From contig NC_087079.1 in the NCBI RefSeq assembly GCF_026151205.1, positions 5,289,230-5,353,229 of the forward strand: a stretch of DNA of 64,000 bases, given 5' to 3'. The position numbers and the translations under genes were made by a program. The notes under the pieces are model-generated. The model saw nothing but the letters and a program-made list of their open reading frames with translations, was not told the DNA's origin and searched no databases. The stretch comes from Bolinopsis microptera (Eukaryota; Ctenophora; Tentaculata; Lobata; Bolinopsidae). This document shows positions 831-62,300 of this stretch, one piece after another. Numbering within the stretch: the first letter of the stretch is position 1; each line of letters begins with the position of its first letter.

Positions 831-2287
831 GTGTTGTATTATGTTTGCCATTTTTATGTTAATTATGTCACTGAAGATTGCTTTTCAAACATGAAACTTA
901 TAGTTTGACAATTGCATAGTTTGCTTTGTACCGATATAATATATATATATATATATGTTTTTCCATATTTTTAAGAGTAATTACAATACTTTAGTATATA
1001 GGGTGGTGTCTGAGGTTAAAAACTCGTGCGCTGTGAAAGACGTTTGACCTTAACCATAATTATGGACATGTAGATTTGCGATCTTATATCATTGTACACA
1101 GCGATATAACTAAGTTGAAGTAAACAAATCGGATAGAAGAAAAACGGCCAGTAATGCAAAAAAGTGCGGTATTTATAGGTCGATTCTACATTCACCGCAC
1201 TTACATTCTGCCTCTGGCATGGCTGCAGATCTTAAGGGATGTAATCTGGCTCTCTGATGTATCATAAGCAAAGAATATTTACTAAAGATGACACCTTGGA
1301 CGCAGACTAGCCCTCTTGGATGGCAATCTCGCCATGAATGTATGTAAGAGCTAGAAAAGTGGCTGTAATTATAAAAGCGACTCTCTGTATCAGCTAAGAT
1401 TTTGGTTTATGCAAAAGCGCGGGCGCTACATTAGTGTTACTCTACACGTCCTGAAGAGCAGAATTTCCAACTCATAATTATATAGCTTATGTCTTAAGGT
1501 TGCTTTAACATAATTGACCTATAAATGCAGGAATATTGTGTTAAAGCGATCGGTTACGGAACATATTACATACTCCACTATAATCCATCTGAATCTAGAC
1601 ACGTAGACTATCACTAATAAAACCATACAAATGGTGCATCTCTTAACTTTAAAGTCTTACAAATTAAACATGTCAAGATAATCTACATTTATACACTAGT
1701 TTTGCAACTAACTGTCCTCAAATAAAATAGGACTGTAAAGTGTAAAATGAACAAATAAAAAGAAATGTAAGTGTCGCTTTATTCAAACGGAGTTCAAGTA
1801 TAAAAAGTAGAAGACGGGAATAAATCAGCAGCTGCACTACTCTAATCGCTTATATGGCATGATAGAGGTGACGACGTTATTGGTCGCTGACATTGACTGG
1901 CGTTATTACCATACATTACATATTATCTACACATATTCCTTTGTATTGGTCACATATGGATTATGTTGTAGCTCAGAATAATGCTTTTGCACAGAGAACA
2001 GCTAGTCGGCGGAATTAGCAGGATCACAAGGCTAAACTGATTGAGTAATAAGCGGAGCATAGCGAGGGATATGGTTTACATGTGATCAAGAGATATCATC
2101 TAGATCAATTTAGGACAATTACTGTCGAACTTTACGTAACCAATGCTGGAAAACATTTAAATATAAAAATCAGCGAATGCGTTTTAAGCCTGGCGATAAT
2201 GAGCTTGAAGCCAGGCAGAGCCCCGAGATCTGCTGGTCCGAATTTCTAAATCTCGTCACAAAATATCCTAATGTGTGATAACACCAG
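731..2287. other. Intergenic or intronic AT-rich sequence
   Basis: Contains the AT-rich tail of the Penelope-like element and a short (AT)n run at about 939-956. I find no convincing exon, RNA gene or repeat in the rest. It is probably an intron of the BEACH-family gene or its upstream flank. Confidence 0.4.
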
Positions 2288-2389
2288 GTAAAGTGGAAGA
2301 GCTAGGAGAAGATGCAATAGCTTCAGGGCACGCTTCCCCAGCTGGTTTTGATGTGGTCCAAGAGAGCGGATCTATACAGTCCCTGCCAG
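2288..2389 (+). CDS. BEACH-family gene, exon (acidic linker)
   Basis: Acceptor ACACCAG, donor CCAG|GTAAGA, phase 1 in and phase 1 out, 34 codons. Encodes a low-complexity acidic/Ser stretch ([13 protein letters not shown]). Supported only by splice signals, open frame and phase match to the next exon. Confidence 0.5.
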
Positions 2390-5300
2390 GTAAGATTCTT
2401 AAATCTTAGTCAAATTTATGATAAAGTTACGAGCACAACAAATCAGCGCAATCTTCTGCAATTTAAATCGATATTAAAGTATAGTATGTACATTGAATAA
2501 CAGGAGAAATGCATATAATGAGTTCCCAATGAGTTGCAAGGCTTGATAATATTAATGACTGATAATTGATAAAGCTAAATCCTTGCAATACCTAACCTTT
2601 AGAATGTGTAGATTGCACAGCTGTAGCTTGTTTACAATAGTGTTGTAAAAATCAACACCTATAAATTTTACGCCTGCCAAATAGTTTTAGAAGTAATTAG
2701 GAGAAATCGACTGCTGCAACACTTCTAATTAGTTATTGTAAATGTAAACACCAACGTCCAACTTGTATAGTAACGATCTAACAATAATTGTGTTCAGATG
2801 AGCCAGAAGCACAGATTAGCAACAATGATGAATCACATGGTAATTCATTTTTTCTCAGCCATTTTTGAGAAGACAAAACATTAGTCTGACTAAGATTAAA
2901 GACGATTTCATGGATTATAATTTATTTTTCGCTAAAGAAAAATTTGACTGAAGTATCTCCCATGTTTTGATAACTAAATTTCAGTGGAGAAGACCGAAAA
3001 TAGAGTTGCCAGATTCGTAATCCTCCTTGAAGAGATGTTAAGGGACTGTCCAACGAATCAAGAATCTTTACTAAGCACCAACGGATTTGCTGTTATCAGT
3101 GCACTTCTCATAAATGTACAAACATTTATCAAAACGTTACATTTGAATGAAAATGAGAGTAAAAACCCACCTCGACCTCGGGCGTGACGTTGCAGTTTGC
3201 CACCATCTTCGCCGATCAAAATAGTCGATCAAAAACTTTCATAAAATCTCGTAGTAATGACATTAAACGAAACGGTAGACCATTTATACCAAAAACGGCA
3301 ACCCCAATTGCTCCTTCATTAATTTTTTTCAGACACCTCCAGATGAATTGAATATGACATTGGTGAAGGCCCTACAATCTTTATGTCTGCTTCTGTCTTA
3401 CGATGTCAACCCAACTAATTCTAGTGACGAAGGTGATCATTGGGAAGTGTATTGCTTGTATGAACTATTCATTGTACTTAAATAGAGTTTATTTTCCAGC
3501 GTCGGGATTTATCGGAAATTTCTCCGGTTCTACTATTATACCTTAACGCTATTGAAAATATTATCGTTAGTTTTTTTATAAACTAACGATGGTTCTACTA
3601 CAATTCCAAGGTAGATATCTTACATCATAACGCTATTGAAATTGAAAATATTAATTAACGTCTAACGATAATATTATATTTTCAGCATACTCTCCTCTTC
3701 TACACGACATATACCAGCACATCTTGTTCAACTTTGAGCTGTGGTCAAAAGTGGATCATGAAGTGAGAATTGGTAAGTTGGCATGCAAAGCCTGTATTGG
3801 CGGGGTAGTGGGGAGGGGGGTTGGTTCGACGAAACCTTCGATATTTGTAAAAACTAGACTTGAATACTGGTAAAGCTAATCGTTGGAGTAAAGCCCCCTC
3901 AACTATGTAACATGATGAAACAAATTTAGTACAATGGTAATGTAATGGATAGGTATGGCAAAATATTCTTTGCTAATAGCGACGTTGCTATTTGCGCGAC
4001 TGAAATGCAATGAAAATGACCTGCCGAACATTGAAGTAAAATATTTTCTTGGAGAAATTCGAGTTTCTCTCATTTTCTTCTTGGACTAAGTGCTCACAAA
4101 GAAGGGCTTTGATGTTGATATCAAAAGGTATAATTATTTTACATAAAACTAAAAGAGCATAATTATTCTGTAAGTCGATGCTTTATAATATAAAATTCTA
4201 TTTTGGTATTTCGGTCATCATGTCTCACCACGGACATTTTCCGTACCATTTTGTCGAAGTCAAAACGATGGTAGGGATTAGGGAATAAAGAGTCGGGTTC
4301 AGATTTAAGAGACGACTCCGGGTGCCAGCAGGACAGCCACGCCCATATTTGGTCCAAATTATGCCAAATTATGCCAAATCATCTTAACATGCTTAAAACC
4401 CGGATTCCCCTGAACTCGTATATTAAGTTCCATCAAGATTGGACAAAAAATGACTGAGTTATGAGCCAAAAACCATATGCTAATATTTGGGCATACGCAC
4501 CAAATTTGATCGACTTTGGCCCATAAATTAAACAAAAATCAATATTTTCAATGAAACCAACTTTAAATAAAAGGTTAACATAAACAACACATCTTCTATC
4601 AGCTCAATATCTACCTAACTGTGGAGTGTGGATTCTGTGTTCAAATAATCGTAAAAAGTGAACAAAATCGCCCATATCTCAGTTCACGATATTCGCGAAA
4701 CTGATTTCGCTCAAAACAATAGAACTCAATAGGGTTTCAATATTTTTTCATGAAATTTTCAGAATCATCATAGAATTGCATGATGACCTTAAGTGTTTGA
4801 GTGGAATTTTGAGTTGGGCCTTTAACAAAATTTGGCGGCCAAATTCTGAAATTTGCCGGGCTTTGAGCATGTTAGGATGATTTTGGCATAATTTGGCACC
4901 GGTGGGCACCCGGAGTCCGGAACCCCCCAAAAGTTCGGCCACAGGTCTTAGTTTTCTGGTCAATTGCTGTCTCGATATCGAATTTCACAAGAAAATCAGG
5001 GTGAACCCCCCTTAATCAATTTTCTCAGCGTTTTCGAAAACACGTAAAATAGTTCGACACGTACTGTAGTTCGACAAACCCCAAATGTAAAGTTCGACTC
5101 TGTCGAACTAAAGTGCGCTACCTGTAGTAGTATAGTTCGACACGTACTAAAGTTAGACAGAGAACTGCGACTGGGCAATTACAACGAAACAAGTGCGTCC
5201 GTATGAACCGATTAAACCAACTTTTATCTTTTTTATTTTAAATATGCAGTCTGCACGCTTATGCAGCATTGAAATCGAATATTACTAGAACATGTCATGA

Positions 5301-8300
5301 CCTCTAAAGGAGTGAATATTACCAACATTACTACAACAATATAATAATTATAATAATTATATGGCCTAGGACACGTAACGTGCGATGACGTCAATGTAGA
5401 ATAATGCTGTGCAACAAAATTACAACATTCTAATAATGTAACTGACCAACTACAAAACCCACCGCGTTCAGAGTTCTTAATGTTCTGAGAGGTGCCGGTG
5501 ATGAGCGGTCACATACGCTATTTATTTGAAATAAACGCGCGAGCTGATTATAGAGGTAGCTGTCTACTCAAATTAACAAGAGATAAGCACAATCCACAGA
5601 ATGCCTGGCACTCCAAGCTCTCGTAAAATATTCTGCCTAAAAACTGTGCGTGCAGGATATAATACTGTCATATTCGGGAATAAACTGGACCCGATAATAA
5701 TCTCTAATATCAGCATGCGTCAATTACGATAAAAAATCTAGACAACATTCAGTCATTGTTTACGTCAACTCGACTAATGTACTTGCCTTCCGAGGAATTT
5801 TACTAATCTGCCTGGAATGCGTCCCAACTCACCTGTCACAACCATTAATTAAACCCTCTCCCCCTCAGCACACATTCGGTATCTTAGCGTGATAATAAAA
5901 GATAATCTACAACTTTCTCCTTTAATTAATTGATTATTTAATTAATCTCCCCCCTCAGCCCACATCCAGTATCTGAGCGTGATAATAAAGGATAATCTAC
6001 AACTGTGTCGCAGACTGTACGGAGTGCAGTTCATGTTGGACGCTGTTAGACTCTACTGTTCTAGCAATATAGAGCAGCCTGACACTGCGTGTGTCCTCAG
6101 ACGTGCCATATTTGGTGAGTTATTTTACCATATTTGGTGAGTTATTTTACCATGTTTGGTGAGTTATTTTACCATGTTTGGTGAGTTATTTTACCATATT
6201 TGGTGAGTTATTTTACCATATTTGGTGAGTTATTTTACCATGTTTGGTGAGTTATTTTACCATATTTGGTGAGTTATTTTACCATGTTTGGTGAGTTATT
6301 TTACCATATTTGGTGAGTTATTTTACCATATTTGGTGAGTTATTTTACCATATTTGGTGAGTTATTTTACCATGTTTGGTGAGTTATTTTACCATATTTG
6401 GTGAGTTATTTTACCATGTTTGGTTAGTTATTTTACCATGTTTGGTGAGTTATTTTACCATATTTGGTGAGTTTTTTTACCATGTTTGGTGAGTTGTTTC
6501 CCCATGTTTGGTGAGTTGTTTTCCCATGTTTGGTGAGTTGTTTTACCATATTTGGTGAGTTGTTTTACCATATTTGGTGAGTTATTTTATCATATTTGGT
6601 GAGTTATGTTACCATATTTGGTGATTTATTTTACCATGTTTGGTGAGATATTTTACCATGTTTGGTGAGTAGTTTTACCATATTTGGTGAGCTATTTTAC
6701 CATATTTGGTGAGTTATTTTACCATGTTTGGTGAGTTATTTTACCATATTTGGTGAGTTATTTTACCATGTTTGGTGAGTTATTTTACCATATTTGGTGA
6801 GTTATTTTACCATATTTGGTGAGTTATTTTACCATGTTTGGTGAGTTATTTTACCATATTTGGTGAGTTATTTTACCATGTTTGGTGAGTTATTTTACCA
6901 TATTTGGTGAGTTATTTTACCATATTTGGTGAGTTATTTTACCATGTTTGGTGAGTTGTTTTCCCATGTTTGGTGAGTTGTTTTCCCATGTTTGGTGAGT
7001 TGTTTTACCATATTTGGTGAGTTGTTTTACCATATTTGGTGAGTTATTTTATCATATTTGGTGAGTTATTTTACCATGTTTGGTGAGTTATTTTACCATA
7101 TTTGGTGAGTTATTTTACCATGTTTGGTGAGTTATTTTACCATATTTGGTGAGTTATTTTACCATATTTGGTGAGTTATTTTACCATATTTGGTGAGTTA
7201 TTTTACCATGTTTGGTGAGTTATTTTACCATATTTGGTGAGTTATTTTACCATGTTTGGTTAGTTATTTTACCATGTTTGGTGAGTTATTTTACCATATT
7301 TGGTGAGTTTTTTTACCATGTTTGGTGAGTTGTTTCCCCATGTTTGGTGAGTTGTTTTCCCATGTTTGGTGAGTTGTTTTACCATATTTGGTGAGTTGTT
7401 TTACCATATTTGGTGAGTTATTTTATCATATTTGGTGAGTTATGTTACCATATTTGGTGATTTATTTTACCATGTTTGGTGAGATATTTTACCATGTTTG
7501 GTGAGTAGTTTTACCATATTTGGTGAGCTATTTTACCATATTTGGTGAGTTATTTTACCATGTTTGGTGAGTTATTTTACCATATTTGGTGAGTTATTTT
7601 ACCATGTTTGGTGAGTTATTTTACCATATTTGGTGAGTTATTTTACCATATTTGGTGAGTTATTTTACCATGTTTGGTGAGTTATTTTACCATATTTGGT
7701 GAGTTATTTTACCATGTTTGGTGAGTTATTTTACCATATTTGGTGAGTTATTTTACCATATTTGGTGAGTTATTTTACCATGTTTGGTGAGTTGTTTTCC
7801 CATGTTTGGTGAGTTGTTTTCCCATGTTTGGTGAGTTGTTTTACCATATTTGGTGAGTTGTTTTACCATATTTGGTGAGTTATTTTATCATATTTGGTGA
7901 GTTATGTTACCATATTTGGTGATTTATTTTACCATGTTTGGTGAGATATTTTACCATGTTTGGTGAGTAGTTTTACCATATTTGGTGAGCTATTTTACCA
8001 TATTTGGTGAGTTATTTTACCATGTTTGGTGAGTTATTTTACCATATTTGGTGAGTTATTTTACCATATTTGGTGAGTTATTTTACCATATTTGGTGAGT
8101 TATTTTACCATATTTGGTGAGTTATTTTACCATGTTTCGTGAGTTATTTTACCATATTTGGTGAGTTATTTTACCATATTTGGTGAGTTATTTTACCATG
8201 TTTGGTGAGTTATTTTACCATATTTGGTGAGTTATTTTACCATATTTGGTGAGTTATTTTACCATGTTTGGTGAGTTATTTTACCATATTTGGTGAGTTA

Positions 8301-11300
8301 TTTTACCATGTTTGGTGAGTTATTTTACCATATTTGGTGAGTTATTTTACCATATTTGGTGAGTTTTTTTACCATGTTTGGTGAGTTGTTTTCCCATGTT
8401 TGGTGAGTTGTTTTCCCATGTTTGGTGAGTTGTTTTACCATATTTGGTGAATTGTTTTACCATATTTGGTGAGTTATTTTATCATATTTGGTGAGTTATG
8501 TTACCATATTTGGTGATTTATTTTACCATGTTTGGTGAGATATTTTACCATGTTTGGTGAGTAGTTTTACCATATTTGGTGAGCTATTTTACCATATTTG
8601 GTGAGTTATTTTACCATGTTTGGTGAGTTATTTTACCATATTTGGTGAGTTATTTTACCATATTTGGTGAGTTATTTTACCATATTTGGTGAGTTTTTTT
8701 ACCATGTTTGGTGAGTTGTTTTCCCATGTTTGGTGAGTTGTTTTCCCATGTTTGGTGAGTTGTTTTACCATATTTGGTGAGTTGTTTTACCATATTTGGT
8801 GAGTTATTTTATCATATTTGGTGAGTTATGTTACCATATTTGGTGATTTATTTTACCATGTTTGGTGAGATATTTTACCATGTTTGGTGAGTAGTTTTAC
8901 CATATTTGGTGAGCTATTTTACCATATTTGGTGAGTTATGTTACCATGTTTGGTGAGTTATTTTACCATATTTGGTGAGTTATTTTACCATATTTGGTGA
9001 GTTATTTTCCAATATTTGGTGAGCTATTTTACCATATTTGGTGAGTTATTTTACCATGTTTGGTGAGTTATTTTACCATGTTTGGTGAGTTTTTTTACTA
9101 TTTTTGGTTAGTTATTTTACCATGTTTGGTGAGTTGTTTTCCCATGTTTGGTGAGCTATTTTACCATATTTGGTGATTTATTTTACCATGTTTGGTGAGA
9201 TATTTTACCATGTTTGGTGAGTAGTTTTACCATATTTGGTGAGCTATTTTACCATATTTGGTGAGTTATTTTACCATGTTTGGTGAGTTATTTTACCATA
9301 TTTGGTGAGTTATTTTACCATATTTGGTGAGTTATTTTCCAATATTTGGTGAGCTATTTTACCATATTTGGTGAGTTATTTTACCATGTTTGGTGAGTTA
9401 TTTTACCATGCTTGGTGAGTTTTTTTACTATGTTTGGTTAGTTATTTTACCATGTTTGGTGAGTTGTTTTCCCATGTTTGGTGAGTTATTTTACCATGTT
9501 TGGTGAGTAGTTTTACCATATTTGGTGAGTTATTGCTAAAATTCGAGTATTTTTGCTGCGTCAGCAAGGCCCAGAAGGCTCCTCTCATAATCCAGTTAAC
9601 TAAAGATCTAAAATTTCTAACGGGTCTTTAAAATAATTCTTTGGTGCCATATTTGGTGCCATATTTGGTGCCATATCTGGTGAGTTGACTAGAGTATGTT
9701 ATATAATCTGTTACATATTAAGAATTATGCATCTATAACTTTATGTGTAATCGAAATGTTGAGCTGATGAAAGTGTTCTGGGGTGGAAGGATTTCCATAA
9801 CGACCACACGTGCCAACTATATAATTGCACTGCAGTTATGAATGCTGCATATCCAGTGAATTGTTGCTAGATGCAGTTAGTGGAAATTCTGTGGAACTTT
9901 CAGTATAATTATTAAAGTGGAATACTCGTTAACTCTAATCTGACTCCATAACTACTTCATAACTACCAATGTTTCTTTCTATCCAATAAGATGCCACCTC
10001 AATTTGCGAATCACCCTTTTTTTTGTGGGAAAAATTAGAGAAAAGTCGGACATGTTCAGAAAGATTTATCGAAAACTTTAGCTGTTGAAATATCGCTGAA
10101 TTGCTAATTTCACTCGCATTCTATGCACATCCGACTGTTCGTCAAGCAATATCGGATATTAATATGGAACACTAACTGTTACTATCTACTCAGGGTTCGT
10201 GAAGTTTTACATGAGACATGGTATCCAGGTAACGGAGGTCAAGTCTATTCTAGCTTTCATCGCAGTTACCCCAGATCTGGATCAGGTTAGACATAATTAA
10301 TTAATTAGACATAATTATATCAATATAATAAAACCCCGATATTCTGCGCACCTATTTACCACGGTCATTTCTTTTCCCCCAAACTCCGCGGTGAATCGGG
10401 ATTTTACTGTACTTAGTTAAATTCAATCCAGGTTCAAGATTGAGCAATCGAGAGACTTGGAAGTAGGGGCTTTGCACTTCCTCAAGCTAGTTTCATATCT
10501 ATCAACCTTATAACAATTTGAAATTGTAACAGAATAAAATCAGAATGATTTCCTACGCAGCGAACTGAATATCAGCTCTTCACAACTCTACACAACTCTA
10601 CCCACATCCATTCTGAGATATCTCATGAATTATTAAATGAGTAGACGACTAAACCAAAGAATTGGCTCTACTAAACTGTATACTGGAAACATTAAACAAC
10701 CGCCATCACTGACTGATTCCACTATAATTACTAAACTGCCCAGTGTATATAGGTACTCCTTCATAATAAAGTCGATTTCCAAGGATGGGAAGTACAGTAA
10801 TTGCCTCCCTAAAATAGCTTGTCTATAATGAAACCTGGAGACAATGCAGAGCCAACAAGGCAAACCAACAAGTGCACTAAGAGGCATGCGTACATAACAC
10901 TAATATCACTACACTCACGAACACTGTGCACTGTCACATACGAACTGCATAATGCCTAGATATTAACAATTTCACTACATTTACTCTTTCTGTAGAATTA
11001 GCTGCTCTGATTCACGGCAGATTTTAACCAGGTTTTATTTAAATCTTCTCATCAATAGTAATAATCTCAAGAGTGTGTTTCTGTCTGTCTGTCTGTCTGT
11101 GGGTAATTTCCGAACGGCTTTTGCATTTCAACTGCGATAGTGAAGTCCCGGCCGTAGGCACGGCCCGGGTTACACTAATATTCATATAACTTTAAAGACA
11201 TGTGGTTATGGGGATGAATAGCAAAATGGTCAAATCGGCAGTACAAACAAGTATTTCAACAGAAATGTAAGGGAGTTACTGCAGTGGACGAACAAAACCG

Positions 11301-14300: not shown

Positions 14301-17300
14301 TACAATATTACTAAATCAGAAACTAAACTTTCAGCCTTTTTTATCTATGATTTTAAAGGACGTCCTACCCAACACAATAACGAATTTTAAATTAAAAATG
14401 GGTCCACATACCAGTTACTACAGCAATAGTTGGAGTCAGTATTTCAGTCAGAGTATCAGTTGATGGACTCGATGACCCAGTCCCTGCTTCAGTTGATAAA
14501 CTTGCTGACCCTCTCTGTGGCTCAGTGGACGGAAGGTCTGATTTAGTAGCTGATTCTGTAGGAGCTCTAGGAACTACTTTCTGGGTACTTCCCGTGGTGA
14601 AGGCTCCCCCAAATTGCGTGGTTGATTCTGGCGAAGTTGCTGGATTCGTCGTTCCTTCGCCCTGTGAGAGGGTTTCTAATTATAATTCTTGCAGATGAAT
14701 ATACTTTTAAACGTTGTGTTCCTACTTTTGTCCTATCACTTTCTATCTTCAACTTTAAAGACCGATTAGCCTAAAGAATTCGGGGGTGGCTCAAAATGCA
14801 TATTAGTAACTATTCGAAGTTACAATTACTTCGCATAACTCGGATCTTGGCAGGTCTAAACTTTTCGGAACTGAGGTGCTGAAAGCTTAAAGAGAAAAAA
14901 TCTATGTATCCAGTTGACTCCAAGAAGTTAAGAAATCAAAAAATCGTAGTAAGGTGCATTGACTTATGTCATCTCTTCAAGAAATTTTGGAGTTTCATCA
15001 TGAAAGATAACCACAAATTCTGTGACACAAATGCCGAAGATGGATGTTGTATTGAATCTTTCTTTGGTTCCATTCAAGTAGTACATATTATATAGTAGGA
15101 CAATACAATAAAAAATACATTTTACTCTGATAATTTAGCTCCCATTGCATCTATTGATACCCGTATCGGATAAATGATAAATCAGAGTAATGTCTGATAA
15201 AAAAAGGAGACGGGCCACTTACAACTGAACACAATTCCTTGGTCCTGCATTGCAAAGCTGAATTAAAGTATCAATTATGACTGAATTAATTATGACTGGA
15301 GCTCTTTATTTATTTGGGTAAAGATCTGAAGTTGTTTGACGGTATTTTTAATCGAATATTGAGTGAAAATTGGAATGGATAAAAAGAGGGCAGAAAAATT
15401 GATCTAATTCATTTTATCAAATCAATTGAATTAAAAAATAGCACGACAAGTAATGTAAGGGTTCGACGAAGTAACCTCCCAAGAAGAACCCCTTTCTAGG
15501 ATAAACTAACCTCATCTAAAGTAACAGTAGCTGTAATAGTTACGCTCTCCGTCTCTGCGGACGCTGTTCTTACCATTAGGTTATCTAAACCGTCTTGTGT
15601 CATTGTACCTGTGATGGTTGTGTTAATGATCGCCTACTAAACCGTCCTGTGTCATTGTACCTGTGATGGTTGTGTTAATGATAGCCTAATAATTTGAGAT
15701 CTTGACCTTAATGTTATACATTATGATTTTTAAATATGAAACTATGTCACACAAAGTCAGGTAATATACGATAAGTTTAAAATTTGTGTTTAAGATTGTC
15801 CTTCCCCGGCTTTCCACAATCAAAATCCACAAAAAGCAAGACTTTCTTAACAACAGTTTTCAAACCTTTAGACAACTTGAACCTGTGAATTTAACCCGAG
15901 TAAGTATATTCTACGGACCTTTGCCCCAAGGGTTGGTGGTGGGACCCTTAGAGGGGTCCTTGTAACGGAGGCACTCCCGACGAGGGCAACAGGGGTCAGG
16001 ACTGTCAACTATTTCCACACAGTTCTCTAAGTCCGGGTTGTAGTAGGGTGAACACTTGGGGATACACCAGAAACCGTATCTGAGAGAGAGAGGAGATTTT
16101 AAAATATTTATTGTGGCGATTTTTCTTCACTGGAGAAGCGGTTATTGTGCCGTGAAAATAAGATGAATCGCTATATCAATCCTTTATAGATGGGGTCATT
16201 TATATCTGAAGTGACTTAAGAATATGATAGCCGGCCGTTATGGATCATTTAGCAGTAATTTGGTAGTCTACACCTTTATAGAGTAGTCGTCTAATGTCTA
16301 ATAGTCTCCTTTTGTAGTCTACACCTTTACACGTAGCATTGCATTAGTTCTAGTCTAGTACCTTCTCTAGAAGACTTCTACTAATTTTTAACAATCACCA
16401 AAATACGATTAAATTAAGGGATTCATTGGTTAAGGTCACTATTGATGTGACTATTGTCTCCTACAAATGCACTTTGCCTTAAACTGTCCCCTTTTATAGT
16501 CATATTTATAAGCTCCAGAAAAAGTGACAAATCGTATGCCCGCTGAAATTTCTTTGTCATATTGGATACAGTCATTACAGCTCAAGAATCTTTGAAGAGT
16601 CTTGGAGGATTGGAATTGGGAAAATAACGTTGGACAACGTTTCCCAGAATTGGGAAAATAACGTTAATCTCAACAATGGAATTAATTAAGCCGTTTTATC
16701 CAGTTTCATATCTATATCCCAATTTGTGGTTTACTACTCTACTACTATCATTAGAGACACGATTAGTGTAAACTTCAATCCCGGTTACTTTAAAACGTCC
16801 GTACGAAGCGATTTGAATTTTCCAAAACTTATTTGGGCCGGCAATTAGATTCTTCTGTTTTGAAAATAGGGCAAAATATTGGAGCCTGGTTGTCCGGGAT
16901 AAAATGGTGTGGGAGTATTAGTAGTTCTAAACCCGGACTTGTAGTTCTAAACCCGGACTTGCAGTTCTAAACCCGGAGTTGGATGTTTTACTGTAGTAAA
17001 ATGTGTTGCACGGTACAGACCCGGCACACTCACTATGTAACAAACTGTGTGGTACACACGGTACCTAGTACGTTATGTGGTACGGTACCTACATTTCCCA
17101 CACTGTTTTACTGTTATACTGTTAACTGTAGTACCTACCTATCACAAGTACATCTCCCACAGTCTAGATAAAACTGATGTCCCATAGCAACGTTCTTTTC
17201 ACTCCCCTTATCGTAACAAACTGAAAAGGGTCGGAGATTAAACACGGGTATTAACTAGAAAGAGGAAGTCGCGACTTTTTTATGTACCCTTCTCATAATG

Positions 17301-20300
17301 AATCTTTCGAGATTAATTCGGGTAATGAAAAAGTGACCAGAGATTGACGTTTGTGAAGCAAGGTCAGGTTTTCTTGAAGCGATAAATAATTTATTCAATT
17401 ATCATTATTATTAAGGGTATAATGATTTGTCTGACTAGGCTGTGGCGCTAAGAAGAACTGAACTGCAAGTACAAAACGTTTCAAAACCTTTTCAAAAACG
17501 TGAACGGGGGGGGGGGGTGGGGGGAGCCTTCAATACTTTCACACAACACAATTCAGCATTATAGTTACCCCTCTTCCCCAACAAACCTCCACGTTTAGAA
17601 CGGGTCCAGTCGACCCCATCAAAAGTGGGAATCTCCCTCTGAACACCTCTACCACCACTCTGTAGGTTAAACTCTGGGAGGGGTGCGGAGGAGACACCGT
17701 GGAGAAGGAGCAGGTATATGAGGAGCATCTGTTACAAACATATGGGGGTTGAGAAAGAGACAAAATATAAACCATGTAACAAGTGAAACTAACGGTTACG
17801 TTGTCAATATCAACTTGTCACGGTAAAATTTCATGAGTGATATCATTGTGGTTTAACAATACCAAATTAACAGATAGTTAAGACGAGATATTGTAAACAT
17901 GTGTTGCTCCCCCTGAAAAATATCAATTTCGGTTGGCTGGCCTACAGTCACGTGGGTAACGGTATTAAAAGTTTCAATATAAAATGCCCATTAAAAGTCC
18001 CTCGTAATCAAGTTACACAAACTACTCGGGGCACGGGCGAGGCTTATAACTTTAACAATAAAAGGAGCTCAAGAATTATCGGCCAGTGCATCAGAAATGA
18101 GTACTAACCTCAGCCCATAAAATATCACATGAAATATACATAAATACAGCCAGTACGGGGGATCAAGCACAGGTACGCGAAAGTGGGTGCAAATTACTAA
18201 ATTGTCAGAAAAATGTTCCTGAAATATTCAAAGCATATAATAGTTAGGCGATACTTACCACCCATGCCCTGGTAATCAAACGTTCAATTCATTTAATTTA
18301 TGTATGTCAGAGAAACTTCCCCGGGTATTCCGGCTTGGTAAACGTACTGCGGTTTCTTTTAAATTTAGTGTCCGTTACTCGGTACCACTTAGCACCGCCT
18401 GGGAGATCTCATTTCTGTCTGGTATTAAGGCTTATCATTGATGTAGATCCAAAGGGCAGACGACGGCAGAGAGTTGTTTGTAGAATGGAAAGATGTGTTC
18501 AGATGGTATGTTAATGGTATACTGGCAGACAACAAGGTGGAGGGTATGCAGCTATAAAATGGACATATTTATGCTAATTGGCTGCCAGTTATTGTTGCAA
18601 TTTTACGCAACTCGATACGAGGAAATCAGGCTTTTGACGAGTACCTGCTTTGTGGTAATGTGGCCTGGTCATTCGTTCAGCTAATACCATGCTTGTAAAG
18701 ATAGATAGAAGGAAGTTTCTGCATAATTCAAATGGTAATTTAAATTAGAGAGTAAAGTCATGTTATTCTGAATGCGGTTCAGATTTATCCTAACTAACCG
18801 GGATTTTTATGCCCTTACGATAAAACAAATTTTCCGGTTCAGGGTTATATCGTGACATTGAAAGTCAGACCTTGATTATTACTAAATAGATAATTACTAA
18901 ATAGTTCAAACAAATTCAAAGAATTCAATTAACGAATATCAGTAATTTCAAAAATATATAAAAAACTCCAACGATTAAAGATTATCAATATTGCAAATTA
19001 TATAAAACATTCCTGATATGTAATTGTAAGACAAAATAATTGTGCATTATTCTGTCTGCCCAACTAACCTGCAGCAAATTTACCGGAATTTCTAAGAAAA
19101 ATATTCCAGTAAATCAGACCTTTAATCACAGTGCTGACTGCTGGCAAGCATAACCGTCAACATTACACTCACTATACTATTTACCCCCTATACTATTATA
19201 CCCCCTTTACAGTTTTCAGGCATTAAGACTCACCGAAAGTAGTTCAGCAGGCATATTTTAAGTTCAAAACATTCTAATTGAATGTCAAAGATGTCAGGAA
19301 TAAGAAATAGTTATGTGGAGGTTTTTAAGAAATTTGCGCAAAATACGCGCCAGTACTGTTATACGAAACTCGGTAAAAAAACCCAAAATCGCCATATTTA
19401 GTGTCTTAAATAATATGTTAAAATTGAGTTAGAGATCTGAAACTTTGCAGGGCGTCTAGCCGTTGACCAAATCGACTGTAAACACATTTTCAAGTTTCAG
19501 GGGTATCAGGAAGTGGGTTTTCTGGAACCCCTGTTTTACAACAGATTGTCGTGAAGCTATATATATATATATGTATAGACGCTTTTGCAGTAAATTGTAG
19601 TCTACATTCAAGTGTCCGTAGATCGAAAAGTATAAAATTAAAAGATACAGTAATCGTTTACACTTCAGTTTACTTTATAATACAAAATAATTTAACGTCA
19701 TCATCACCACTTGATGACGTCATCAAGTTAACCGTTTTTAAAACTTGATTTTTGACAAAATAATAACTTTTCAAATCGATTTTACACCATTAAGGAGTAA
19801 TTTTATTCAAAATCTGAGGACATATTTAGATTAGATAATTGTTCAAGCATTCTGAAAAGCTATCGCAAAATTTTCCTATCTTGCTCCATCATAAAGATAT
19901 TCGCTATTAAAGTTAGTGCTTTTTTGAAGAATAATTTTATAAAAACACAAAAGCTGTGAATTAGTATTCTCTGGTGTTGGGCCTTCTCTTGGGTTGTGGA
20001 GCTCAATTTTGCTTCCTAAAGGTCTAAATTTTGTAATAGGCCAGTTTTTAAGTTGAAAATCGAAAAGTTGCACACGTGAGGACACGCCCAAATTGATAGA
20101 AAATTGCTAAAATCACTGAAAATTGCTATTTTCACGATTTTTATCAACTTTGGAGTTCCGTTGTGATCCTAGTTCTTTTTGAAATACAAAAATTTATGGT
20201 GATTCAATATTGTATGCGCACGCAACGTCCGCTCAAAGTTTGCACGTGCGAAAGGTGAGAATTTTGCTCATTCGTGATTTCGAATCAATTGTGCTTTCCC

Positions 20301-23300: not shown

Positions 23301-26300
23301 GCAGACTCAGCCTACGTCAAAAAAGTGTTTAAAAACACTCGTTTTTCAGGCGGCCACTTACCCTTACCGCTGACACTTCTAATCCAATTTGCTAATCTGG
23401 ACGGCTTTAGAAGGAACACATGTAGTAGTATATATGCAGACTGTTTGCACAATTTTCGGCAGTATCCAAGTAGCCCGTCATGTGTTCGCGAACAGGTGTG
23501 TTAGGGTTAGGGTTAGGGTTGGGGTTAGGGCTAACCCTAACCCTAGCCCTAGCCCTGTTCGGGATACTTGGATACCTAGAAGGAAAGATCAATATTCAAT
23601 AAGCAAGGGAAACACGATTTAACAATGGAAAACATATTCTTGTCTCCAAAAATTAATTGTTGTTGTATGTTTGGTTTGAGTACCGGGTAAAAGACCTTAA
23701 ATTCAAGAAACAAAAGATTATAAAATGCTTGTCTGTGAAATACTGGGTTATAATTTTTGTGATGAAATATTCATTAACATAGCACGCGACGGTAGTAATT
23801 AGGGAATAAAGGGGTTGTTAGGTGTTTTAGCGCTGATCAAAGCAGGTTAATTTCTCAACTTTTTAAAAGTTTAAGAGTGACAAATTTAGAAACCTACGTT
23901 TTATATTGGAGTAAATGTTCTTATCGTCACGAGCTTACGAGCTTCGAAATAATATCATAACTGTTCAATTTGCTCAGCAAAATTTTTTCTCTATTAGACT
24001 AGACAAACAGATTAGTATTTAAATTGTTTATCAAACCTTGGATCACAGTTTTTACTGAAAAATACCTATCTATGTGTAAAATCTTCCAATATAATTCACC
24101 TAAACTGTAATTTTAAAAAACTTGAACATAATATAATTGGTGTTGTTGTTCTCAATATCAGTCTCAAATTTCATATTCACTTCTGTGAAAATGTCCACTT
24201 GACTGACACTGACAGTTTTCATTTTCAGACTGTCAACGTGATCTTCTGGTTCCATCTTCTACCCATAAGAATATTTAATGAGAAGGTAGTCGTCAGGCAC
24301 TTCTCGCTCTTTTATACTCCATCTATTCTATCTTGTCCTGTAATATGACATCTTATTAAAGCTAAAGATAGAGTATATATTCCCAATTCCTCTCAAACCA
24401 ACCATGATCCGTGTTTCAAATAATGATCGGCCAAATTATTCTGCCAAATTTCTAATCTGCCAAATTTCTAATCTGCCAAATATTTGGGGATTGTATTATC
24501 ATTTTCTTTAAAAGTACGATGAAGTAAATATCCATTAACTTTAGTAACTTTGAATTCTAGGCTTGCTGTGACCTGAGGAAGAGGCGTTAACAAATCTTAA
24601 CATTTCCGGATAAAATTAAACGTCTACTTACAACCTTAAACCATAAACCATCCTTTAATATATCAAATGACCGTATTGTCTACTTGCTGAAGTAATGCTC
24701 GTTTAGCATAAACATTTAGTTTTAAGTTCATAGTATGACGTCATTTATGATATGTGTCAATAGTAAAAGCTTTCCTGTCACATCACAAGTACAAATACTG
24801 ACCTGAGCTGATGTACGGACAATATGCTCTGCTGAAGACATCACTCAATACACATCCTCAGCTTAAAGCCGTTAAATGAACTTTCCGCTATCAAATTCAG
24901 TTTGTTCTTTATAATGGCACTACACCAGGATTTGCCGGTTTTAATTGGGTTATTGGTGTTCCGTGGCAATGTGGTGCTATAATTAGATTGTAGCTGCCGT
25001 CAGTTAATTGATAGAGGTGCAAGAGGCGTGTAGATGGCGTGATAGTGACGAGTTGGGCGTTTTATCACACTTGAGATTATTCCTCACGTTGTGATTTGGG
25101 AGCGAAGCTTATTTTACAAAATTAGCAGCCGAAATGGATGCTCCAATGGGTGGCAGGGTGCGGCTAATTTGTGTGTCGCTATTTTCCGGTTCCTTACTCT
25201 CCCAAACAAAAACCATCAATTATTCAAATTTATCAGCACAGCTGCTTTCATCAATTCATCTGAAAGACCACAAACAAGAATGGCAAAATGACGTTTTTTC
25301 TATAAATTTCAGATAATAGAGTTTATAATAAAGATAAGATATATAGTGAGTAAAGATCAGGGATAAGATAAATGATTATCTGATAAGAGTAACTCCTTCA
25401 GAAACTAGAAGCTATAGAGCTGATAACAGTGCTAGTAGAAGTTCCGCCCACAAGTTTGCCTCTAGCAAGATGTCTAGCCTCGCAAGATGCTCAGGATCTG
25501 TTGGTAGGGCTGCTACATACCCCTTGTAATGAACTCAAGTCATCTCTCCTCAAGGTTAGTGTTAGTTTTGTATCTGTGAGCGTGTGGGTCTGAGAGGTGG
25601 GGTTTTTTTTTCTAAATTTCATTGAAGCTTCCGGGGTTTATACACAAATGGATTGCTTTTGAAAAACTAATTTCGAAAATATCCAAACGTCTCACAACTC
25701 CACCTCAACAACTCCGCCCTAACACCTCCCATTTTAACACCTCCCACCCTAAAACCTCCCACCCTAAGACCTCCCATCCTAACACCTCCCACCCTAACAC
25801 CTCCCACCCTAACAACTCCCACCCTAACACCTCCCACCTTAACACCTCCCACCCTAACACCACCCACCTTAACACCTCCCACCCTAACACCTCCCACCCT
25901 AACACCTCCCACCTTAACACCTCCCACCCTAACACCTCCCACCCTAACACCTCCCACCCTAACACCTCCCACCCTAACACCTCCCACCCTAACACCCCCA
26001 CCCTAACACCTCCCACCCTAACACCTCCCACCCTAACACCTCCCACCTTAACACCCTCCAGCTAGTACGAACAGTAGTAGACACGTGCTGTAAGAACAAG
26101 ATCCCGCTCCACTCCACCCAGCTGTGCTACGTAGGGGAGGCGGTGATGGCGTGCAGTATTGACGGTAACCCGGAGATAGTGAACGAGCTGCTGGCTACTG
26201 TCTCCATCGTCGTCAACAGTGCTACTGAACTTAGTGAGTTGTTTTATTGTACAAAGTGAGGTTGTGGGGGGAGGGGTGCAGTATAATAATATATAAACTA

Positions 26301-29300
26301 ATTACAAATATATTACATTTATTGAGGATGTAACAGGAGGTATATGTAGGGGGGGAGCCAAGTGGATATTTGTAGATATTTGGATAATGTCATCCACTTT
26401 TTTCGTGAATTATCCATTACAATAATCTACAAATATCTACATTTATCTACAAAAAATGTATATCTCAAATATGTGCCCAGAAATTGTACTGAATTTTTGG
26501 AGATAAATGTATAAATTTGTAGAATTTGTAGAATTTTCGTGAATTATCCATTGACAATAATCTACAAATATCTACATTTATCTACAAAAAATGTTATCTC
26601 AAATATGTGCCCAGAAATTCTACTGAATTTTTGGAGATAAATGTATAAATTTGTAGAATGTCATCCACTTTTTTCGTGGATTATCCATTCTACATTAATC
26701 TACAAATATCTACAAATATCCACTTGCCCCCCCCCCCCCCCCCCTATGTATAAAACAGTAATTTATTTTATTGAAACAATTATTTGATAAAACAATTTTT
26801 GTAATAAAGGGGTCATAATCCCCCTCCAGTTTCACTTTCTCGATATGGTTAGTTTTAATCGTTAAATTTCGTTACACCTCTCGGGTTTAGTGAACTGTTT
26901 AGTGTTTATCTCATCTAACTGCTGGTGGTTTGATTTGACCTCTCCGCAACATCTTACTATATATAAAGCGAGACGATATAATATGTTTATTTATATATCC
27001 GTACCATCAACCACGGCATCAACTTTAACGCGACTTTCCGCAAAAACGGTAAAAGATATACAACTTAAACTTTTTTGACTGGTTCAAATGCTTTAATGGC
27101 CATCAAATCAGCATGAATAAATAAAACATTGGCCATGGAATAAGAATTTTGGTGCCCACAATTTGGACACCCAAGTGGTGTCGAAAACGCGAATTAAATA
27201 TAAAATATGTAACAATTATTTTAGTCTCTTGAGTCTTGACACCACTTATGGGTCAGACGGGTTCCTGCTAGTGGTGGCAATGTGTTTACCGGTTGTAATT
27301 TTAACTACTGACTAATTAAAATCAGGTATCAGATAATTTAATGTAACGGTAGCTTTGAAAAAGCGCCAGAAAATAGCAATAGGTCTTATTGTGCTGTTAG
27401 AGATTTGAGAGATTTAAGATTATTACATTGACAAGTAACTTAGAAGGGAATACTTAGAACTTTTTAAAAATTCCCATAAAAATTTATATTTTGCTAAATG
27501 AAACAATGAGCTGTGGCGAGAGATTATAACCATTTCGAGATGAGAAACATTCAAACAATTTTTCAAATTATTGACAAATTTTGTAAAAAGGACTTTGAAT
27601 TTATTACTTAACAAATAAAAGTTAAAAGTTAACAAATACAATTTAAAATTAACACAACTAAATTTTCAGAAATACGATTCATGACAGACAAATAATTGTC
27701 AACCTTCTTTTTTCAGAATAGAAATAATTTCTGAGCTACAGTTCAATAATATCAAAAACTCAATCAATAGCATTGACCCATATTTTGGAATTTACTGCCG
27801 TAGTAACGTACGTAGTTAAAATATACGCGACGTACGCAGTTAAAATAGACGCAAAAATAACGTACGTAGTTAAAATATACGCAACTTAACTGCTCGAGGA
27901 AATTATCAGAGAAATTATAAACTATAGAGAAGCTACAAAGAAATTAACTACAGAAACCTACTTCATCATTTTATCTTTACAGAATAGGAAGTATCTCTCA
28001 AGTACAGAAAATGGGTTTAACAGAATCAAATGATCTTATTCACTCCTCAGTCTCATCACTGGGAATCAGTTCCTGTTCTTTTTGTTTCTTCAATGTTATA
28101 GTAGAGTGAAAATACCCATACCCAAAATACATCAAGACCCCAACAGCAAAGTAAGCAACAGTCATCAGATGTGCCATTACATTAAGGGAACTGAACAAAG
28201 CCAGATTGAGAAATATACCAATTGCTGGAATAAACGGTATTCCAGGACACACAAAACCAGGATTCTTCTGAGGCTGGATGTGGTAGGTCATCTTAATGTG
28301 GATCAGTATTAGAGTGTTTATCAACCCAAGTAATATCATTATTGGGAAACGAAATTTCCAGAAGGGCCATGAGCTTGGCCAGTAAATAAACGCGATGCAA
28401 ATTGTCGAACTAACTGTGAAAATACTCACCCAACTGATCACTTTCCACTCTTGATTTTCAATGTACCCAGAATCCTCACTGTCCTGCTGATCCCAAGATG
28501 TAAAAAGCTGATCTTCATTCATCATAACTTCGTTTTGAATAAGTCCCGAGGATTCATCAACAACTTCTTTTTGTTTAGAGTAAGAAATAATTATGAGAGT
28601 GAAGCAGACTGCTACAAAAGTAACCAATGCTCCTCCTGCGACCAGATGAATCAGAATCTCGTAGGAGAACACTATCGTAAAGAAAATTATCACAATTGTA
28701 GCGAAGACTGTTGCAATAATAGGTACTTTTGAGGACTCGGCCACCAAACCAATACAACTGAAAATCAATCCATCCTCAGATAGCACCATGAGCCCTCGAG
28801 CCAGTGTGGTAAGAGAGCACAAAGCTACACTTCCAGAAGCAAAAAGGATCGCTGCTGCGATAATGTACTTAGGGATTGTGAGCCCATGTGCCTGTAAGGA
28901 ACCAGGAATCCCCGTACTTTCGTTAAGGGTATACCAAGGTACCAGGTAGGAGATAGCAGCACTTACTAATAGATAAACTAGAACAGAAATTCCGAAGCTT
29001 AAACCTGTTGCAAGAGGGACGTCTCTTTTAGAATTCTTGGCTTCCGCTGAAAGGCTGACCACCGATTCGAAACCTGCGAAGGACATAATCACAACAGCCG
29101 CTCCAGTTACAACTCCTGAAAATCCATAAGGAAACACCCCTCCTCTTCCTGTTTCAGGGTCAGTGGAGTTGGTGAATGTCTTGCTACTGCCGTACATAAA
29201 TGAAATGATGCAGTACATGGCCAGAGAGATGAAACTAAATACCACTGTGAGGGTATTCACGATAGCGACCTGTTTGACTCCGATACAGTTGACGATACAA

Positions 29301-59300: not shown

Positions 59301-62300
59301 GAGTCATGAATTTAGTTTTAATGTCGTTCATGGCTAGCCCCACACTCAGTGCTGCGTTAATTAGATAATTAGGTATTGAACAGCAGCACTAACCAGACTA
59401 GTTCAACGGCTCAGAAAGTGACATGACTCCTGTTGATCACTAGTAGAAATTAGTAAAGCTATTAATAATTAGCAAAACAACCTGCCTTCGGTAACTGTTG
59501 GTAGGGAGCATCACGGCTCTCTGCATTTGTAGTTAAAAAGGCACCATCCAGATACAATTTTGTTCTAATGTGACCGCGAGATTATTCCCTGCGTTATTAA
59601 CTATTTAAAACAGCTGGAGGCTGACCAGATCTGATGAGCGGTCCAAAGTACGAACTGCAGCAGCAGGGCGCTTGCGTTGAACAAATAAACACTACGCCTA
59701 TTATGTAATTTCACAAGAAACTGCTTAGTTACGTTATATTAGAACATTGCGTGTCTCAACATAAACTATACATATCACAGTATCCACTTGATGATGTGAA
59801 AATTATACAATAAAATCGTATTAAAAAGATAACTATTATAATGATAACATGTTATCATTATAATAGTTATCTTTTTAATACGTTATAACAGATAAGACTG
59901 AAATATCCTTATAATGTAATAAATGCATCTAAAAACACTTCAATACGAGTACCTACCTCGATAAGAATTCGAATGAGCACTACAGTAACGCCCCCTCTAG
60001 TAACCAAAGTAACGCCCCCTCTAGCAACCAAAGTAACACCCCCTCCCCCCCCCCCCCCCCCCCTTTAGTAACCAAAGTAACTTCCCCTCTAGTAACCAAA
60101 GTACCCCGCCCCAACCCCATCCCCCCCCCCGGCTCCCTCTGTAACCAAAGTAACACCCCCCTCTCTTCAGACCAACTACCGGACATGTTGTTAATGCAGT
60201 CTCTAGTGCAGCTACTGCCCCTCTAGTAACCAAAGTGCCCCCCCCCCTCCCCCCCCCCCCCCCTCCCCCCCCCCCCCCCCCTAGTACCCAAAGTAACAAC
60301 CCTCTCTCTTCAGACCAACTACCGGACGTGTTGTTAATGCAGTCTCTAGTGCAGCTACTACCCCGGTTTGGTCTCACTACTCGCCTGCACGTGGTACAGG
60401 AGCTACTGGTACTCACTAGAACTAACCTAAAGTTGGGGGAACAGTACAGTTTACTACCTTCCTGGTACAACGCCGTACTCTGTCTTATGCTCGGTTAGTC
60501 ACGCTATGTCACGTGGTTAGTCACGTTATGTCACGTGGTTAGTCACGTTATGTCACGTGGTTAGTCACGTTATGTCACGCTATGTCACGTGGTTAGTCAC
60601 GTTATGTCACGTGGTTAGTCACGTTATGTCACGTGGTTAGTCACGCTATGTCACGTGGTAAGTCACGTTATGTCACGTGGTTAGTCACGCTATGTCACGT
60701 GGTTAGTCACGTTATGTCACGTGGTTAGTCACGTTCTGTCACGTGGTTAGTCACGTTATGTCACGTGGTTAGTCACGTTATGTCACGTGGTTAGTCACGT
60801 TATGTCACGTGGTTTAGTTAGTTACGTTATGTCACGTGGTAAGTCACGTTATGTCACGCGGTTAGTCACGTTATGTCACGTGGTTCAGTTAGTGTAGACA
60901 ATAGACATGACTCTCTTTGGTGAACATTTTTTATAAGTTGGCTAATTTCTTACCAATTTAATACCAGGTGTTTTGAAAGTTTAAACATGACTCTATTGGG
61001 TGTTTTGAAAATGTCTTATAAGTTGGCTAATTTCTTATAAATAAGCGTTAAAAATAATTTGGTGTATTTTTTTTCGAAATTTCAATAAAATTGAGAAAAA
61101 TTTCGAAAAATTCCATTTATTTCGAAAAATAAAGCCCCAATCGTTCTGAAACTATCATTCGCCTGCCATAAAGTGGCCATTGCGGTCATTTTGCACCCCC
61201 TATGGAGATCTCAAGACCTTCGGGAGCCGAATAACCAATATTAGGGGTGGGGCGTATGGGTTCCTGGAGAAAAATGACTATGAAAATTTTTGCCCAAAAG
61301 TTTCAGCTGGACGGTTTTTTTTTGTGGTTCCTGGGACTATGGACAACACATTCCTGTAGACAAACCTTTGTTACGAATTTGTTCACAGATTGACCCATAA
61401 ACAGCAATTCTTGCCCTAACTATTAGTCAACCTCCTCTTTAGCTGAAGTCATGAGCTGCAATAAATTGTTTTATTGATTTGTTAATTACATGATATTTGG
61501 TAAAAGTACACTGGATTAATCAGGAGGAGGGAGTGAGGAGGAGGGAGGACTACAAGAGCAACTATTTGTAACTATAATGGAGCTGCTACACACCATACTG
61601 TGGAGGTACTACGAGAAAGCAGGCTCCCTCACTAAGGACCAGATAGGAAGGATACTGCTTGCTGTTGATGAGCTGGAGAGCAAGATATTTAAAACTACTT
61701 CTGTTATCAAGATGAGGTAATTATTAGTAACCAGTTTAGTAACTATTGGTAACCAGTTTAGTAACTATTGGTAACCAGATTAGGGTTACTGTTAGTTACT
61801 AGGGTATCAGATTATTTGGGGTTTTGTAGGTTGCGATTCGAAAAGTTTGTTTCTATCTCTTATATCGTCAATTACAGTGATTTCTTCAATTCTTCTGGAT
61901 GAGAAACAAGATTTATGTATTATAAATGTTAATAAGATTTATAATTCAGTTCAACATTGAGTACGATAAAGTTAAAGTAGGTGGACATAGATATTCGTCT
62001 CATAAAATTCGTATGATACTATCGGTGTTACAGCAATCATTATCCAGTTTATTTCTTACTCTTCTTCTTTGCCTCTGATTGATTAATTATCAAAATTGAA
62101 AAAGGGCTGTGTTTGAGGGTTAGCCTGTGTGACCAGATGCTAAATAGTATACTGAAAAGAGTTTACTTTTTTGGGTTTCGTTACTTTTTAAATGTTTTTA
62201 GGGGGCTCCTCTCTTTAATCAACAGCAGTGATTTCATTAGTTTTTTTTCTAAAAAGGGCTTACGATTGACAATTTATTCCAACTTTGGGTGTTTTATATA

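Follow-up and report, generated by a model that had tools for sequence, protein, structure and literature searches.

In a stretch of 64,000 nucleotides from the ctenophore Bolinopsis microptera (contig NC_087079.1, positions 5,289,230 to 5,353,229 of the forward strand; hereafter the window), we found that, in a gene of the neurobeachin family, the end of an internal coding exon and the 5' splice site that follows it lie within the unit of a 22-bp minisatellite, repeated about 155 times in tandem. The array is real and belongs, as an extreme case, to a known class, the mirages described from lancelets: its unit crosses an exon-intron boundary, and both 5' and 3' boundaries are affected in this genome (by an 18-copy acceptor array and by a duplicate of the acceptor of the same exon at 5845-5914). 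We consider it probable, with good confidence, that this boundary-spanning minisatellite is a tolerated by-product and that its first donor is the one used.

A minisatellite at the end of a neurobeachin-family exon

The array was called with Tandem Repeats Finder (TRF) on the DNA of the window (GC content 37.7%) and was then cut into units for a census. In the assembly sequence, TRF places it at 6106-9534 with a period of 22, 155.9 copies, 92% matches and a score of 5619, and the census contains 155 full units plus one partial unit of 17 bases. The unit, CCATATTTG/GTGAGTTATTTTA, joins the final 9 bases of the exon to the initial 13 bases of the intron; for the first donor, CCATATTTG/GTGAGT, the junction lies at 6114/6115. 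The initial annotation of this DNA, made from its letters alone, had described an approximately 155-fold tandem array at the exon end, an exon junction inside the repeat unit and a strong donor in nearly every unit, and the census bears out all of this. Indeed, the donor position holds GT in 155/155 full units, GTGAGT in 129/155 and GGTGAGT in 128/155. The U1 duplex energy of the first donor (-9.2 kcal/mol) is equalled or bettered by 128 of the 155 later donors, and just 3.3% of 1500 GTs sampled from the window (array included) are as good. The junction 15-mer CCATATTTGGTGAGT occurs 67 times in the whole genome (264,652,675 bases, or 264.65 Mb, in 232 contigs), 66 times inside the 22-bp array. 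A 12-bp array at 9640 has CCATATTTGGTG in common with the 22-bp unit.

All later donors would damage the message. A stop codon falls within the extension for 154/155 of them, while the first later donor (+22) shifts the frame, with no stop up to the close of the following exon (10194-10285); therefore every donor but the first would spoil the protein. The earlier expectation that a later donor adds 22n bases and soon brings in a stop is borne out for 154 of the 155; for +22 the result is a frameshift, with no stop as far as position 10285. By join, the DUF4704 match scores 80.8 bits with the first donor, 75.4 with +66 (X at the stop), 70.7 with +22 and 60.4 with the exon skipped. The first donor preserves the reading frame, meets no stop and scores highest for DUF4704 among the joins tried; it is presumed to be authentic and, judging from frame and domain match, is most likely the one used by the cell.

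The first-donor join matches the neurobeachin alpha-solenoid family DUF4704 of Pfam (E=1.3e-22); residues 6-187 of the query align to profile 61-256 with the junction covered. A BEACH domain lies about 4 kb beyond the window on the same strand (C8:5357307-5358879), and its main exon matches human neurobeachin 1mi1 with an E of 5.8e-69. With both domains present, the host gene can be assigned by sequence similarity to the neurobeachin/BEACH family. The DUF4704 half and the BEACH half probably belong to one transcript; should upstream LamG-like exons (recognised by eye) share it with the BEACH exons, the length of the gene would be about 110 kb. PDB searches with the array-bearing exons gave no match. 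Exon 5959-6114 carries tandem duplications at both ends, the copy at the acceptor side (5845-5914) aligning with 5938-6004.

Array edges at other splice sites

Arrays recur at other splice sites of this genome. Splice sites were mapped by hand from reading frames in three BEACH-family genes and compared with the edges of TRF arrays (28 donors, 26 acceptors and 79 arrays in gene 1; 12, 8 and 28 in gene 2; 13, 13 and 21 in gene 3). Left out of these statistics were the random loci L024-L028 (29 merged arrays, exons unmapped), loci L013 and L034 (2 arrays, no splice sites defined) and candidate exons with ends that could not be placed; locus L028 contains long 153-bp tandem repeats at 1775-9869. 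The left edge of an array falls within 10 bp of 13/53 donors (7, 3 and 3 by gene), against a null mean of 0.94 and a maximum of 6 in 5000 shifts. For right edges and acceptors, the count is 6/47 within 10 bp (reached in 3/5000 shifts) and 11/47 within 30 bp (null 2.4, maximum 9, reached in 0/5000 shifts). Under a stricter null, with random placement of every array confined to the intron that holds it (28 arrays and 35 bounded introns in all), 10/28 arrays are donor-anchored where 2.74 are expected (P=5e-6). No wrong-side edges (right at a donor, left at an acceptor) were counted, which is a weak control because arrays within exons are expected to be rare. A replicate was made on two further loci, whose 14 donors and 17 acceptors were fixed before the arrays were called. 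One donor word there occurs at four places (8966, 9013, 9107 and 9161); the first copy was scored, although the exon end had been read at 9013. Acceptor counts were 2/17 within 10 bp (233/5000) and 4/17 within 30 bp (106/5000), and the replicate agrees in direction with the three-gene result.

Exon sequence is included in the units of several of these arrays. Just past the window, a 23-bp array has 8 exon bases in its unit and contains 68 copies of AAGGTAAGT; near it, a weak DUF4800 match of loosely joined exons (18.9 bits, cutoff 28.8) lay below the cutoff and was not used as evidence. The acceptor array of gene 2 (17168-18503) repeats 18 times a 33-base word that crosses the acceptor and includes 24 exon bases, the presumed true site being the last. 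Arrays of gene 3 have units with 29 and 49 exon bases; in one of them (L032 5282-5571, a 92-bp unit repeated 3.2 times), the last 49 exon bases and the donor are present three times in all. Another donor-anchored array, in a gene on C10 (L023 reverse complement 7106-7325), shows the tail of the exon together with the donor a second time, 89 bases on.

The genome was also searched for donor words, counting places and not arrays. Three copies of AGGTAAGT with spacers were found at 1212 places (450+762) versus 11 for the reversed word; a scrambled word of the same composition, GATGAAGT, gave 148 places and its reversal 342. Among the matches listed, the AGGTAAGT places correspond to 7 arrays on C1 and C2, or 5 distinct ones once two look-alike pairs are merged (our own grouping). 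Of the listed arrays, one coincides with an exon of ADAM type (Reprolysin at 21.4 bits against a cutoff of 20.8) and another with a 58-aa open frame that matches no family, the array edges lying 10 and 40 bases within its presumed exon; the remaining 5/7 have no evident exon, the flanks of all 7 having been inspected. The word TCACGTGA is over-represented (28 versus 4.0 expected, both strands; arrays masked in the gene-1 region only).

Origin of the array and competing explanations

We propose that a 22-bp segment straddling the exon-intron boundary was duplicated in tandem, giving rise to a minisatellite, which would then have grown and been homogenised through ordinary repeat turnover, in part by duplication of a large segment. 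One run of 37 units does occur twice in identical form, at an offset of 38 units (836 bp), a structure typical of minisatellites. Provided that the first donor is used, the mRNA would be intact, because the array sits on the intron side of the real exon. Exon definition most likely directs the choice to this donor, which among all of them is closest to the upstream acceptor and yields an exon of 156 nt, whereas later donors would lengthen the exon and give stops or a frameshift. The array would then be one among many splice-site-anchored arrays in the genome.

The unit series comprises 24 full-length types connected by 23 inferred changes. Divergence in the 22-bp array rises downstream, most of it falling in the final fifth (leaving out site 5, rho is 0.26 at a nominal p of 0.001, the units not being independent); no downstream trend was seen in the 23-bp array past the window (rho 0.08). 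Growth from the donor end has some support in the former array and none in the latter.

The initial annotation had left a choice between a first site that is always picked and an array that affects splicing as a U1 sponge, a delay element or a length-dependent switch. The former option fits best, and the array roles are unsupported. A splicing role of any such kind, or as a guard against premature polyadenylation, seems to us quite unlikely. It could appeal to the later donors that match or beat the first in U1 pairing, to the 68 copies of AAGGTAAGT in the 23-bp array past the window and to the genome-wide counts for AGGTAAGT and its control words. However, the 7 donor bases took 6 of the 23 changes where 7.3 are expected, and among the 24 unit types compared they are no better conserved than the remainder of the unit. 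A sponge or switch is also unsupported because 7 of the 13 donor-anchored arrays start past the donor GT; moreover, several arrays in other introns have units without a donor, and arrays are found on the acceptor side as well.

That a genome rich in minisatellites merely has one overlapping an exon end by chance is quite unlikely. Such an accident would be in keeping with the 79 merged arrays in 114 kb around the host gene, with the low donor count of the replicate and, among the matches listed, with 3 of the 5 distinct arrays from the donor-word search having no evident exon upstream. It is opposed by the 13/53 anchored donors and by their excess when arrays are kept inside their own introns, as well as by the exon sequence within the units of several arrays.

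Several points nevertheless weigh against a mirage whose first donor is used and against anchoring at splice sites. The three-gene maps were not made blind to the arrays, and a missed exon would change the within-intron null. Acceptor anchoring is not significant under that null (5 versus 2.74, P=0.087), and the exon behind the 18-copy acceptor array is an open frame with no Pfam match. In the replicate, 1/14 donors had an array edge within 10 bp (null 0.28; 1218/5000), which is weak and not significant alone. Our first test, of exact local self-similarity at donors, found 2/28 and no enrichment (P of 0.57 versus random positions, and of 0.84 and 0.22 versus GT positions); because its background was dominated by positions inside arrays, we turned to the array-edge tests and then to the stricter null. 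Finally, in classic work on duplicated donors the intron-proximal site is often favoured, which would speak against use of the first one.

It is, in our view, very improbable that the array was brought in by a transposon, or by an element that makes introns, with tandem repeats and a donor at its end. In favour of this, copies of the flank at 9551-9638 (84-85% identity) occur twice on C2, in either case some 0.8 kb away from a 30-bp array; against it, units differ among introns, several of them contain bases of their own exon, and the junction 15-mer is essentially limited to this locus. An assembly artefact, in which the array would be absent or its length inflated by mis-assembly, is likewise very improbable. 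The exact duplicate of the 37-unit run might be a sign of one, and a lancelet mirage is reported as wrongly assembled in the draft genome (PMC3087553). An invented array is unlikely because the 24 unit types stand in a structured order and similar arrays occur in many other introns, while the length could still be in error.

Beyond the mirage itself, a broader reading is possible, although we hold it only tentatively and rather doubt it: tandem duplications may arise preferentially at splice sites through a process tied to transcription or splicing, which would seed minisatellites at exon edges. No more strongly do we suggest that introns would thereby lengthen at their ends, chiefly at the 5' one, with the 155-donor array as an extreme product.

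Other features of the window and comparison with known systems

Table 1. Features at and around the array (positions on the scale of the window)
Feature	Position	Strand	Basis
Upstream duplicate of acceptor and first ~46 exon bases (decoy acceptor)	5845..5914	+	Local alignment to 5938-6004
Internal coding exon, neurobeachin-family gene (...VLRRAIF G/), one base left over at 3' end	5959..6114	+	Open frame; DUF4704 match contiguous across junction
22-bp minisatellite, 155.9 copies	6106..9534	+	TRF and unit census
Presumed authentic 5' splice site GTGAGT, first among ~156 donors	6115..6120	+	Frame kept without stop; best DUF4704 match among joins tried
12-bp array TTTGGTGCCATA x3.6 (9640-9682), then further donor-like CTGGTGAGTT	9640..9685	+	TRF and inspection of sequence
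Next exon (31 protein letters not shown, including carried-over base), after CTACTCAG	10194..10285	+	Within DUF4704 match
Acceptor-side array, 15 bp x22.7 (CCCTAACACCTCCCA); ends 7 bases before acceptor 26062	25717..26055	+	TRF, array-edge map
Second donor-anchored array, same gene, 22-bp unit with GTTAGT; left edge -1 from donor 60494	60493..60885	+	TRF, array-edge map
Donor-anchored 22-bp array x3.0; left edge 0 from donor 61717	61717..61783	+	TRF, array-edge map
Donor-anchored 47-bp array x6.1; left edge +2 from donor 63126	63128..63416	+	TRF, array-edge map
Start of exon whose end ..GGCTATGAGAAG/GTAAGT falls just past the window	63893..64000	+	Sequence
23-bp array x74.3 opened by exon end GGCTATGAGAAG/GTAAGT	64038-65770 (L022)	+	TRF

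Elsewhere in the window, the region that separates the halves of the host gene (28040-56950) contains a minus-strand open frame of 628 aa (28040-29926) and several similar open stretches on the plus strand, at 34501, 39491, 43404 and 55208; we take all of these to resemble an amino-acid transporter. The 84-bp repeats at 46422-47374 and 49625-51082, read by eye, are presumably C2H2 zinc fingers on the minus strand, and a 369-aa open frame that occupies positions 1-730 and continues upstream would, we assume, correspond to part of a Penelope-type retroelement.

With a natural series of near-identical donors in one intron, it can be tested directly how the first of many equal 5' splice sites is chosen by the spliceosome. 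Should splice-site anchoring prove general across the genome, it would be relevant to the starting points of tandem duplications and to the growth of introns, and mirages, described from lancelets, would be extended to another animal lineage.

The human gene IFI6 (6-16, G1P3) reportedly contains a minisatellite with multiple splice donors, a description attributed to Turri in 1995. Two downstream repeat units of IFI6 serve as donors and give isoforms (PMC4526556). The present array resembles IFI6 in having a donor-bearing repeat at the exon end, several units of which can act as donors in IFI6; it differs from it in that later donors here would give stops or a frameshift. A Rogers-type model cited in the main lancelet paper (PMC3087553), in which introns arise or lengthen when AG/GT segments are duplicated in tandem, likewise has splice signals carried by tandem duplication; unlike in that model, an existing intron appears to be lengthened here, with no new intron position shown. 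The human minisatellites considered and CeRep25B of C. elegans (PMC4039745) did not fit this array, and no report of a mirage or intronic minisatellite from ctenophores was found among the open-licence papers listed.

The closest known systems are the lancelet mirages, in which intron-exon boundaries, either 5' or 3', are duplicated in the manner of a minisatellite; they are said to leave regular splicing undisturbed, and their mechanism is unclear (PMC3087553). Among them, the globin BflGb6 has units of 150-160 bp, 6 and 3 of them in two haplotypes, and Adh3 has units of 10-72 bp (PMC3087553); for the Adh and troponin C mirages, another report states that no aberrant mRNAs are generated (PMC3902484). 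Our array is like these mirages (Adh3, the globins BflGb6 and BflGb9, troponin C and, similarly, PGBD5) in its boundary-spanning units, many of which carry AG/GT signals. Unlike them, it reaches about 155 copies of only 22 bp, in a ctenophore genome where such arrays are common in the three genes examined.

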